This document shows positions 61,031 through 64,000 of a stretch of DNA of 64,000 nucleotides, piece by piece. The stretch is taken from NCBI RefSeq assembly GCF_036169555.1, contig NZ_CP108032.1, positions 4,154,001 through 4,218,000 of the forward strand, read 5' to 3'. A model generated the notes under the pieces. That model was not told the DNA's origin, searched no databases, and saw only the letters and a program-made list of their open reading frames with translations. The position numbers and the translations under genes were made by a program. This DNA is from Streptomyces sp. NBC_00306 (GTDB lineage Bacteria > Actinomycetota > Actinomycetes > Streptomycetales > Streptomycetaceae). Within the stretch, counting starts at the first letter, position 1. Every line of letters begins with the position of its first letter.

Positions 61031-61583
61031 TGCGTGTGCCTCCTCGACGCGAGCCTGTCCGGACCGAACCTATGGTCGGAACCGGCGCGCCACCAGACGG
61101 CATCCGAGGGTGTCCGCGGTACCGCCGGCGTGCTTTTCATCGCTGGACCGACCTCGAGGGACCCGCGTTTCAGTAATTCCTGAAATGACAGCGGCAGAAG
61201 CGGACGCCTCCTTACCGGTGGCAAGCATTCCGCCCGGGAATGGCAGATGATCACCGCCCACGCGCCGTCCGGAATCGGCGCGCTCGGCCACCGCGTACAT
61301 CCGTCCCTCGCCCCGGCCTCCTGGTCGCACCGCTCTGAACTGCTGTTTCTCCTCACAGGGGCGGGAGTTGGCGCCGCTGTCCGGCATGAACCGGCCACCT
61401 CCGCGGCAGGCACCTTCATGCCAGGCAGGTTCCTGGTCTGGCCGAAAGCAGACAACAGTACGGGGTCGGTGATTTCCTCTAGCTACGCAGTCGAAAGGCC
61501 CCCGGGCCGGACGGCCGCCGGACAACTTCTTCCGAATGGAAACACTGCCGCATTCGTATCCACCGCACGAATGGAGACGATCA
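61031..61583. other. 553-bp gene-free divergent region
   Basis: Between the SDR and repeat-protein starts no frame has a credible start plus coding bias. It contains TTTCAG-TAATTC-CTGAAA, an exact inverted repeat (61168-61185), and a comparatively A/T-rich promoter-like stretch just before 61584 (CATTCGTATCCACCGCACGA). It presumably holds both promoters and possibly a small regulator target. Confidence 0.5.
61168..61185. promoter_or_regulatory. Inverted repeat in the divergent region
   Basis: TTTCAG and CTGAAA arms, 6-bp centre TAATTC. Could be an operator or a short hairpin. Confidence 0.3.
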
Positions 61584-61970
61584 ATGTCACGTGTAACCCG
61601 CTGTACCGCCGCCGCTTCCGTCATAGCCGCCACCGTTCTCGGCTCGCTGCTCTTCTCCTCGCCGGCGCAGGCCGCCGGGCAGCAGGGGCCGGCCGCGTCG
61701 GTGCAGATCTCCCAGACGCCCAGCGGCGAGGACGACTTCGTCTGGCCGCAGCCGAAGACCGAGCCCGGCACGGACGGTGCGCAGAGCGCCCGCGGCGGGG
61801 ACCGGACGGCGGCCAAGGACGGCAAGGACGACTTCGTGTGGCCGCAGCCCCAGGGTGAGCCGGGCGTCCCGGACGACTTCGTCTGGCCGATCCTGGGCGA
61901 ACTCCCCGACCTCCCGGGCCTCCCCGGAATCCCGGACGACTTCGTCTGGCCGACCCCGCCGAAGAGGTGA
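61584..61970 (+). CDS. Small secreted protein with four DDFVWP repeats
   Basis: A 128-aa precursor. The signal peptide is about residues 1-30 (cleavage predicted after A-Q-A). The mature part is 98 residues, Pro/Gly/Asp-rich, with D-D-F-V-W-P at 50-55, 82-87, 97-102 and 118-123. Linkers are partly shared (QPKTEP, QPQGEP). No Cys is in the mature part and no known domain was recognised. ATG 61584 has GGAGA at 6-7 nt. It ends 25 bp from a convergent LuxR-type regulator gene. Function unknown; the repeats look like peptide units or binding modules. Confidence 0.75.
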   Translation: MSRVTRCTAAASVIAATVLGSLLFSSPAQAAGQQGPAASVQISQTPSGEDDFVWPQPKTEPGTDGAQSARGGDRTAAKDGKDDFVWPQPQGEPGVPDDFVWPILGELPDLPGLPGIPDDFVWPTPPKR

Positions 61971-61995: not shown

Positions 61996-62979
61996 TCAGA
62001 TCCACTCCCGCCGGGTCGCCTGCACGCCGGCCTCGAACCGGCTCGACGCGCCCAGCCGGTCCATCAGTTCGGCCACGATGCGGCGTTCGGTGCGGACCCC
62101 GATACCCAGCGCACGCGCCACCGCCTCGTCGGTGAGACCCGTGGCCAGCAGCTGGAGCAACTTGCGCTCCTGCGCGGTCAGTCCGCCGGGGTGCGAGTCC
62201 GCCGGGGTGTTGAGGGGGCTGGCATGCTCCCAGTACGCCTCGAACAGGGCGCGCATGGCGTGCACCACGGGCGGGTTGCTGAACAGCAGCGCGGACGGCT
62301 GTGCCTGTCCCGGCAGACCCGCGACGACCGCGGCCGTGGTGTCGACGATGAGCAGCCGCATCGGCAGGGTCGGCGAGGTGCGTATCTCGCTGCGGCGCTC
62401 GGCCATCCACTGAGCGTGGGCCCGGGTCACCCGGTCGTTGGCGACGCTGTCGAGATAGATGGAGCGGAATCGTACGCCCCGGGCGAGCGCTCGTTCGTTG
62501 AGCGGCCGCCCGGCCTCGATCGACTCCTCCGTCAGTGCGTTGACGGGGTGGAAGGCGAGGGACTCCACGGCACAGGACTCGGCCAGGGCTTCGAGGCGGA
62601 TGCGGATGTCGTCGACGTTGTCGAGGTGTTCGGTGCCGCCGAGCGACTCGGTCCCCCCGGACGCGGTGTATTCGGCGGCGAGAGCGGCGAGAGCCGAGCG
62701 GTTCTGCTCGATCTGCTGCTGTCGCCAGGCCAGTTCGTCCTGCTCCCGCTGGAGCAGGACCTTGAGACCGAGTGCCGGGTTGACCGCCCGGAGCCTGCCC
62801 GGACTGTCCCGGGACGGTGCCAGCAGAGAGAGCTTGGACAGCCGGCCGAGTGCGGCCTCCACCTCCTCCGGAGTGCTGTCCAGAAGCTTGGCGAGCTGCA
62901 CGGGGTCGTGTTCCTTGTGGAACAGGATCGCGCGATAGACGCCAAGGGTCTGTTGATCCAATGACGAAACCTCGTCCAC
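61996..62979 (-). CDS. TrmB/LuxR-type transcriptional regulator
   Basis: A 327-aa regulator with two DNA-binding parts. The N-terminal TrmB-like winged helix spans about 5-65 (DQQTLGVYRAILFHKEHDPVQLAKLL). A middle domain lies at about 110-240 with PVNALTEESIEAGRPLNERALARGVRFRSIYLDS, similar to TrmB-family sugar/phosphodiester-sensor regions. A C-terminal LuxR HTH spans about 265-325 (LTAQERKLLQLLATGLTDEAVARALG). GTG 62979 has GGGGGAAA at about 8 nt. It probably controls the repeat protein or the genes to its right. Confidence 0.82.
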   Translation of the reverse strand: MDEVSSLDQQTLGVYRAILFHKEHDPVQLAKLLDSTPEEVEAALGRLSKLSLLAPSRDSPGRLRAVNPALGLKVLLQREQDELAWRQQQIEQNRSALAALAAEYTASGGTESLGGTEHLDNVDDIRIRLEALAESCAVESLAFHPVNALTEESIEAGRPLNERALARGVRFRSIYLDSVANDRVTRAHAQWMAERRSEIRTSPTLPMRLLIVDTTAAVVAGLPGQAQPSALLFSNPPVVHAMRALFEAYWEHASPLNTPADSHPGGLTAQERKLLQLLATGLTDEAVARALGIGVRTERRIVAELMDRLGASSRFEAGVQATRREWI

Positions 62980-63194
62980 GTGGCATTTCCCCCTTGAACC
63001 ACGGTTGAACGGAACTTCACTGCGAAACAAGGGCACGCACGCGGACGTGCACCTGGTTCCCGCTCGAGCAAGTCGGCTTCACGGGCGGGCCCCATCTGTT
63101 CACACATTTGGCACGTTACCTGCTCGTCGTACCCACCGACAGGGATCTACGACTGCCGCCGGGTTCTGCCCGCGCACAGACCCCAGGAGTCCTC

Positions 63195-63746
63195 ATGCCG
63201 TTCGCCGGGCCCCACCCTCCCGCGCCGCTCGACGGCTGCATCGTGCTCGTCGTCGACGCCACCACGGGCGCCGGCCGGATCGTGACCGCACGACTGTGTG
63301 CGGCCGGTGCCGCCGTCGCCGTCGTCGGGGCCGGACACCCCGGCCGGGGCGACGACGCGGCCACCAAGGCGGCTTTCCTGTGCAAGGAACTCGCGGACAT
63401 CGATCGTGTGGCGCTGCCGTACCGGACGGACATCGACGACCTCGACATGGTGCGCGAGCTGCCGGCGCAGATCGCCGCCGACCTCGGGCCGGTCTCGACC
63501 TCGGTCGTCGTCATTCCGTCCGGCTCGGGAACGGACAGGCTCGCGGAAAGGTTTCGCGCCGCGTCCCGGGTGATCGCCGCGGCCCTCCCCGAGGGAGCCC
63601 GGCACATCGAACTCGCATCGGACACCGCCGCCGGCACCGGCCAGGACGAAGAACTGGCCCGCCGCGTGGTCGAACAGCTTCTCAGCGGAACGGACCGCCC
63701 GCCGGACGCACGGCCGTCGGCCGGGCCACCGGTCACAGCACACTGA
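63195..63746 (+). CDS. Degenerate short-chain-dehydrogenase-like Rossmann protein
   Basis: A 183-aa protein with an SDR-like beginning (IVLVVDATTGAGRIVTARLCAAGAAVAVVG) but without the catalytic Y-x-x-x-K or the N-A-G motif. The middle keeps the SDR fold plan (RTDIDDLDMVRELPAQIAADLG). It is shorter than typical SDRs (about 250 aa). ATG 63195 has AGGAG 5 nt before it. It may be a regulatory, non-catalytic NAD(P)-binding protein. Confidence 0.65.
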   Translation: MPFAGPHPPAPLDGCIVLVVDATTGAGRIVTARLCAAGAAVAVVGAGHPGRGDDAATKAAFLCKELADIDRVALPYRTDIDDLDMVRELPAQIAADLGPVSTSVVVIPSGSGTDRLAERFRAASRVIAAALPEGARHIELASDTAAGTGQDEELARRVVEQLLSGTDRPPDARPSAGPPVTAH

Positions 63747-63761
63747 TTGTGGGGGCACAGC

Positions 63762-64000
63762 ATGTCGATACGCGTCGTCGTCGCCGGTGATCACCAGCTC
63801 GTGCTGGAAGCGTTCGCCGAGACACTCAACGGAACGGACGGTCTGGAGGTGGTGGGCCTCGCGACCACCTTCGAGGCCGTACTGCCCACCGTCGAACGGT
63901 GCAGGCCGACCGTTCTCCTGCTCGGCGAGAGCACCATGGGCGGCAAGGCGCTGCGGATCGCGACCGACGTCCGCTCCCACCACCCCGGCTGCGGCGTCGC
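63762..64000 (+). CDS. Partial response regulator, atypical receiver
   Basis: The first 79 residues of a NarL-like receiver (MSIRVVVAGDHQLVLEAFAETL). The strand that should carry the phospho-acceptor Asp reads TVLLLGESTMGG, with Gly or Glu instead of Asp. The acidic pair is reduced to G-D. The rest is outside the window; a LuxR output domain is expected for this family. GTGGGGG lies upstream of the ATG 63762 start. Confidence 0.7.
   Translation, partial: MSIRVVVAGDHQLVLEAFAETLNGTDGLEVVGLATTFEAVLPTVERCRPTVLLLGESTMGGKALRIATDVRSHHPGCGV

Follow-up and report, generated by a model that had tools for sequence, protein, structure and literature searches.

Why would a streptomycete export a small protein that carries the same tryptophan-containing motif four times, from a gene that lies beside that of a regulator with two helix-turn-helix (HTH) domains? 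The question is raised by a locus near the end of the window, the stretch of 64,000 nucleotides from Streptomyces sp. NBC_00306 analyzed here. Translation of positions 61584-61970 bears out the sequence-only reading of a small exported protein with four exact DDFVWP copies:

61584..61970, + strand: 128-aa exported precursor with four DDFVWP units, the core pentapeptide being DFVWP (translation)
61584..61673, + strand: Sec-type signal peptide, residues 1-30, cleavage site AQA/A (by eye)
61731..61748, + strand: unit 1, DDFVWP (translation)
61827..61844, + strand: unit 2, DDFVWP, valine codon GTG where the other copies have GTC
61872..61889, + strand: unit 3, DDFVWP (translation)
61935..61952, + strand: unit 4, DDFVWP, followed by TPPKR and the stop codon (translation)

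The 128-residue translation opens with MSRVTRCTAAASVIAATVLGSLLFSSPAQA, continues after the cleavage site as AGQQ, and has its DDFVWP units at residues 50, 82, 97 and 118. The ATG at 61584 has a GGAG ribosome-binding site in front of it and is therefore preferred as the start over an alternative in-frame ATG at 61536. Two further features read from the letters hold up: units 1 and 2 each precede a Q-P-x-x-E-P linker (QPKTEP and QPQGEP), and the mature part is free of Cys and of known domains, the precursor having no match in Pfam or NCBIfam. Within its own 8.5-Mb genome, the only full-length match to the precursor is the precursor itself.

To find relatives, we translated DDF[V/I/M]WP back into a degenerate DNA pattern and scanned 393 Streptomyces genomes with it. 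Nineteen genomes matched; upon translation, 14 gave small exported multi-unit proteins, one (G373) a single-unit protein, and four chance matches in unrelated proteins. The DDFVWP pattern is mostly present in at least two copies within one small exported ORF, whereas its reversed control never occurs twice on one strand of any of the 393 genomes, indicating that the repetition is not due to chance. About 15 relatives of the window precursor are thus found, among them those of S. aureus NRRL B-2808 (a Streptomyces), S. flavochromogenes, S. tanashiensis and S. laculatispora; the number of units, a point on which the sequence-only reading had asked for a check, varies from 1 to 4, and the linkers change. 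Multi-unit DFxW precursors have 2, 3 or 4 units, with spacers of 4 to 32 residues. The motif is neither specific to one strain nor part of a known structural family, given these relatives and the lack of Pfam and NCBIfam matches. The residue preceding DF varies between copies (D, F, L, G, Q or R), and the neighboring clade of S. caelestis, S. massasporeus and S. africanus carries DDFTWT, DFTWG and DDFTWQ in place of DDFVWP, which leaves the pentapeptide DF[V/T/I]Wx as the conserved unit. The repeated core of the six-residue unit originally proposed therefore stands, while its first D is variable and the unit becomes DF[V/T/I]W followed by P, T or other residues. An x-x-Pro sequence (TPP, TAP, IAP, VAP) usually follows DFxW units, as it does the internal cores of most other types described below. 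The DFxW core is kept across relatives as linkers and leaders drift; because of this drift, a whole-protein similarity search with the window precursor returned weak matches only, and motif and regulator routes were needed.

The regulator next to the precursor was examined by profile search and by structure prediction:

61996..62979, - strand: TrmB-HTH / PLD-like / LuxR-HTH regulator, 327 aa, putative pheromone receptor

Its gene lies tail to tail with the precursor gene, separated by 25 bp, and the earlier description of a LuxR-type neighbor with two HTH domains proved correct. The TrmB/LuxR regulator adjoins the precursor at every intact DFxW relative, with 79-89% identity in the window clade and 52% in G373, where the DFIWP precursor is divergent from the regulator rather than convergent as in the window. 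In profile searches, residues 6-253 match archaeal TrmBL2 (hmmsearch against 5box, E 3e-10), and the C-terminal HTH matches DevR/NarL, with PF00196 (GerE/LuxR HTH) at E 3e-6, above its gathering score; Pfam TrmB gives only a marginal match, E 0.034, seen for a regulator paralogue. In the AF2 model (mean pLDDT 79, pTM 0.48), a winged HTH leads through a helix of 39 residues to a PLD-like domain, with a LuxR HTH at the C-terminus, and Foldseek ranks TrmBL2, TrmB and PLD-family nucleases at the top (E 7e-14 against 5bpd). The protein is thus TrmB-family by its winged HTH and PLD-like domain and LuxR-type by its C-terminal GerE/LuxR HTH. We found no TPR repeats in it (Pfam, PDB profile search, AF2 model, Foldseek) and no match to an autoinducer-binding domain, the sensor region being PLD-like (Pfam, AF2 model, Foldseek). 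Because the closest solved structures are of the TrmB family, the regulator appears related to ligand-responsive regulators.

A profile search located regulators of this type, at E≤1e-45, in 231 of the 393 Streptomyces genomes; 19 close ones (E<1e-140) are sharply set apart from the others, whose E-values start at about 1e-95 and weaken from there. Paralogues about 40-50% identical adjoin small exported ORFs with other pentapeptides that also have Trp in the fourth position. Some of these cores are repeated (VIGWD in 2-5 copies, SINWD in 2-4, SISWD in 6 or more, GAGWD in 6 on a plasmid, DAGWQ in 1-3, TTVWE in 4 and TIGWD in 3), and others are single and C-terminal (DMIWQ, DMSWQ, NMIWG, DYIWG, DIRWD, TTGWD, NWAWD and others), so that precursors span 1 to 6 or more copies. 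In most non-DFxW precursors the core is the final five residues, and many relatives are proteins of 45-75 aa with a single core right at the C-terminus. The n-, h- and c-regions of the signal peptides are clear by eye and by a hydrophobicity rule. An ORF with at least two cores is present at 42 of 86 regulator loci (at least one of which, L186, looks spurious); in 347 kb of control DNA only two such ORFs turned up, each at a genuine DFVWP locus. A precursor is detectable at about 60-72% of regulator loci, depending on set and detector; in the tree set, 45 of the 113 non-redundant regulators lack one, among them the five further paralogues in the window genome, whose sole match (beside L208) was taken to be spurious. 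Either the ligands of some regulators are of another kind, or some cores escape the detector. Searching for a short GGxWQ-stop pattern in DNA did not help, its forward count being about equal to the control count.

To evaluate how core and regulator vary together, we collapsed near-identical regulators to 113, of which 68 have a curated core, of 35 kinds. The residue after Trp requires 10 changes on the regulator tree versus 31-41 in 200 shuffles, and the whole pentapeptide 36 versus 52-59, or 30 versus 39-45 when the DFxW clade is left out; the shuffles were run after IHPWW and AVVWG, two core calls made automatically, had been dropped as artefacts, although the tree was drawn with both. Judged from sequence, then, the core peptide tracks the regulator tree, a congruence that partly reflects simple linkage. 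The core is also unchanged where precursor placement has altered: NWAWD in L160 and L192, GIGWD in L157 and L167, and DFxWP in G373 compared with the window clade.

A further shared feature lies upstream of the precursor:

61409..61437, + strand: putative operator, two 14-bp palindrome-like units, GGCACCTTCATGCC-A-GGCAGGTTCCTGGT (alignment, genome-wide search)

This element is 147-175 bp upstream of the start codon. In 23 distinct DFxW upstream regions there is one strongly conserved block, GGCANCTCNNTGCC-A-GGCAGCTTCCTGGC, and the rest cannot be aligned. The VIGWD and DAGWQ types have elements of the same build with their own half-sites, GGCACCTTCGTGCC-A-GCCACCTTGGTGCC and GGACGCATNNGTCC-AA-GGCCCTTTCCGTCC, respectively, and a tandem palindrome stands about 150-190 bp upstream of most precursors. 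An element score of at least 23 is reached by 75% of 76 precursor upstream regions versus 0.9% of 926 control windows, a score designed after viewing some of the regions scored; the genome-wide searches are more independent. In these, the DFVWP-type element has 11 matches in 393 genomes, 10 of them at DFxW precursors, and its reversed control has none; the DAGWQ-type element has 7 matches in 334 genomes, each of them at a DAGWQ locus. The window genome has one exact copy of the DFVWP-type element, at 61409-61437; two further matches there each have 3 mismatches. Three close-clade loci without a precursor keep the element near the regulator. The eleventh DFVWP-type match, in G322, lies 15 kb from that genome's close regulator, upstream of a formerly missed precursor remnant in which DFTWP and the signal peptide are in different frames; a SARP gene (BTAD, E 1.2e-22) follows the remnant:

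L251:15795-17405: G322 intact element, frame-disrupted DFTWP precursor and SARP activator

In L139 and L141 the element precedes a sequence that reads, by eye, like a SARP start. These positions suggest that SARP genes are targets of the circuit.

How might such a pair operate? We think it probable that precursor and regulator form a peptide-pheromone pair, analogous to PapR-PlcR and other RRNPP systems, with a non-TPR receptor unrelated to those of RRNPP. The genomic comparison itself establishes a repeat precursor with an export signal, its constant pairing with a single family of regulators, the tracking of the regulator by the core, a shared upstream element and a conserved cluster context, and we infer the remaining steps. 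The 128-aa precursor would leave the cell by the Sec pathway, as its signal sequence indicates, and would be cut outside into several Trp pentapeptides, DFVWP. These would be re-imported, most likely through an oligopeptide permease, and would bind directly to the neighboring TrmB/LuxR regulator, in its PLD-like sensor domain. The peptide-bound regulator would then act at the tandem-palindrome element, to which the element itself and the linkage of the genes point, and would thereby autoinduce the precursor promoter; the effect would be activation rather than repression, and would depend on cell density. No permease or protease gene was found linked to the pair. Unit-number variation, core conservation and regulator adjacency all favor the multi-core precursor with a signaling role, one of the options that the sequence-only reading had listed.

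It is instructive to compare this arrangement with known systems. RRNPP systems are recognized by a propeptide of 10-100 aa, Sec export, a receptor of 250-500 aa with TPR repeats, adjacent genes and cytoplasmic binding (PMC10075063). Like the RRNPP/RRNPPA systems of Bacillota (PlcR-PapR, Rap-Phr, NprR-NprX, Rgg-SHP; PMC10075063, PMC9765709), the Streptomyces pairs combine a small propeptide that has a Sec-like signal sequence and a short, often C-terminal core with an adjacent cytoplasmic DNA-binding regulator of 250-500 aa, on plasmids as well as chromosomes. Most precursors have 45-113 aa (the 128 aa of the window precursor exceed the detector default, with the same build), the regulator has 327 aa, and the genes adjoin, although WQ, WG and WE types often have one gene between them. 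In contrast, the receptor here combines a TrmB HTH, a PLD-like domain and a LuxR HTH, the host belongs to Actinomycetota, Trp is almost always fourth, and a tandem-palindrome element usually precedes the propeptide. Since TPR repeats define RRNPP receptors, the Streptomyces pair is not a member, though it may work alike. Tandem Phr propeptides (Phr3T, Phr105; PMC11343458) likewise carry several pheromone copies, identical or pseudo-repeats, with conserved cores and variable spacers, but the copies here reach 6, and both peptide and receptor family differ. The known ligands of TrmB proteins are sugars, not peptides. Archaeal TrmB and TrmBL2 (PDB 3qph, 2f5t, 5box) share the N-terminal winged HTH, long helix and PLD-like domain with residues 6-253 of the Streptomyces regulator, to which a C-terminal LuxR HTH is added. 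LuxR/AHL quorum sensing calls for an autoinducer-binding domain and a LuxI partner; with a PLD-like sensor region and no match to that domain, the Streptomyces regulator does not belong to it. Actinomycetota signals are typically small molecules made by enzymes (PMC10075063). As in gamma-butyrolactone signaling, secondary metabolism in the same organisms would be under the control of a diffusible signal, but that signal would be a peptide rather than a lactone, and the pair includes no AfsA-type synthase or TetR-type receptor.

A secreted toxin, RiPP or adhesin that is regulated by its neighbor but not sensed by it would leave many identical traces, and these readings must be weighed. If the product were a ribosomal peptide (multi-core and RiPP-like, or unmodified and antimicrobial or protease-inhibitory), it would act on other cells and the regulator would control its expression only. 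Multi-copy cores in an exported precursor do resemble multi-core RiPP precursors, and the window clade adjoins an azole-RiPP cluster; but that cluster has two precursor-like ORFs of its own, and no modification enzyme, immunity gene or dedicated transporter is common to the pairs examined, a modification enzyme being conserved neither at G373 nor in the examined flanks of other core types. The cores are moreover very short, single-core precursors with the same layout exist, and the core residue follows the regulator tree. We regard such a product as unlikely.

The same tree bears on the reading that the peptide is a signal sensed at the cell surface by an unlinked receptor, the TrmB/LuxR protein controlling production only. 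The orphan response regulator next door in the window clade would fit, but it is confined to that clade, no histidine kinase is linked, and the core is predicted by the regulator tree, making this scheme improbable. A secreted structural or surface protein that uses its Trp motifs to bind the wall, polysaccharide or a protein partner, and that the regulator merely controls, seems still more remote: export, low-complexity Pro-rich linkers and a repeated aromatic motif would suit it, but many relatives offer almost no scaffold, being single-core at the C-terminus of 45-75 aa, the linkers are unconserved, and the core diversifies with the regulator.

If the pair is a pheromone circuit, what might it control? 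On the far side of the regulator lie two genes:

63108..63746, + strand: SDR-like partial-domain protein, divergent from the regulator, conserved in the window clade only
63747..64000, + strand: orphan LuxR-type response regulator, running past the window end, complete in L079:748-1368

The response regulator, with a weak PF00072 match (E 3.4e-7), has by eye a G at the expected phospho-acceptor Asp position (PTVLLLGE). The unusual adjacent response regulator seen in the letters is therefore present, but it is conserved in the window clade only. The order in this clade is regulator, SDR-like protein, orphan response regulator, BagC/FevH-type 3,4-AHBA synthase, BagB/FevI-type aldolase, AMP ligase, PhsA-like multicopper oxidase and SagB dehydrogenase, conserved in 14 of 14 genomes examined over 20 kb and absent at G373. 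Beyond SagB, the window genome has a YcaO gene and a pair of short precursor-like ORFs whose products end in SGSIGTSSSSS(S)TCS[AG]C. This azole-RiPP cluster lies just past the window end (L079:6696-18974; G000:C1, about 4223.7-4236 kb), and its two ORFs are adjacent and near-identical, ...SGSIGTSSSSSSTCSAC and ...SGSIGTSSSSSTCSGC. Azole-RiPP genes with 3,4-AHBA synthesis and a PhsA-like multicopper oxidase are an unusual combination. The conserved order places the circuit at the edge of a conserved 3,4-AHBA/azole-RiPP cluster, into which it may feed in the window clade. The element was not found before the cluster's own genes in the window genome, so any control is more likely indirect or through another site. 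That DDFVWP belongs solely to the neighboring RiPP cluster was considered and rejected, as the pair occurs without the cluster in G373 and with all other core types.

Beyond this clade, we lean slightly towards a large ribosomal pheromone family in Streptomyces and some relatives, independent of RRNPP in origin, in which dozens of mutually distinct Trp-pentapeptide signals, matched one by one with a TrmB/LuxR receptor and an operator type of their own, would serve as strain-group-specific private channels activating antibiotic and RiPP clusters. The literature searched, with preprints and most subscription journals outside its scope, contains no description of the precursor-regulator system, and the Trp-pentapeptide precursor family is apparently undescribed so far. 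To our knowledge, signaling in Streptomyces is known almost entirely through small-molecule hormones. This looks like an unrecognized peptide-hormone system in the bacteria that produce most antibiotics, and would be a second system, apart from TPR receptors, in which short peptides and cytoplasmic regulators co-diversified. If so, silent antibiotic clusters could be awakened through a genetically encoded channel whose five-residue signals can be predicted, and DFVWP would be a candidate inducer of the conserved 3,4-AHBA/azole-RiPP cluster of the window clade.

The WQ, WG and WE types often have between regulator and precursor a conserved protein of about 105 aa that lacks a Pfam match, a possible third component:

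L134:2636-2983, L198:2029-2373, also L197 and others: MYLVHA/MHLIHV-start protein, about 105 aa

Linear plasmids carry such pairs too (DDLGWQ in S. yangpuensis, TTGWQ in S. europaeiscabiei), annotated there as 'hypothetical protein'. On the S. europaeiscabiei plasmid (L199:1-3500), the TTGWQ pair adjoins a second LuxR-type gene as well as transposase genes of the TnsA/Mu type, a hint that the module may be mobile. Phages contain no genuine relative of the regulator, and regulator relatives in Kribbella, Streptosporangium and Longispora (L100-L107) showed no Trp-core precursor. Outside Streptomycetaceae, pairs are found in another family of the class, with GAGWQ (twice), GIIWD and NTWPGAV repeats. 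The last of these is a different repeat design: near a divergent regulator in G549, an exported ORF (L233:3035-3313) carries four NTWPGAV/NTWPGV repeats (GNTWPGAVCTD).
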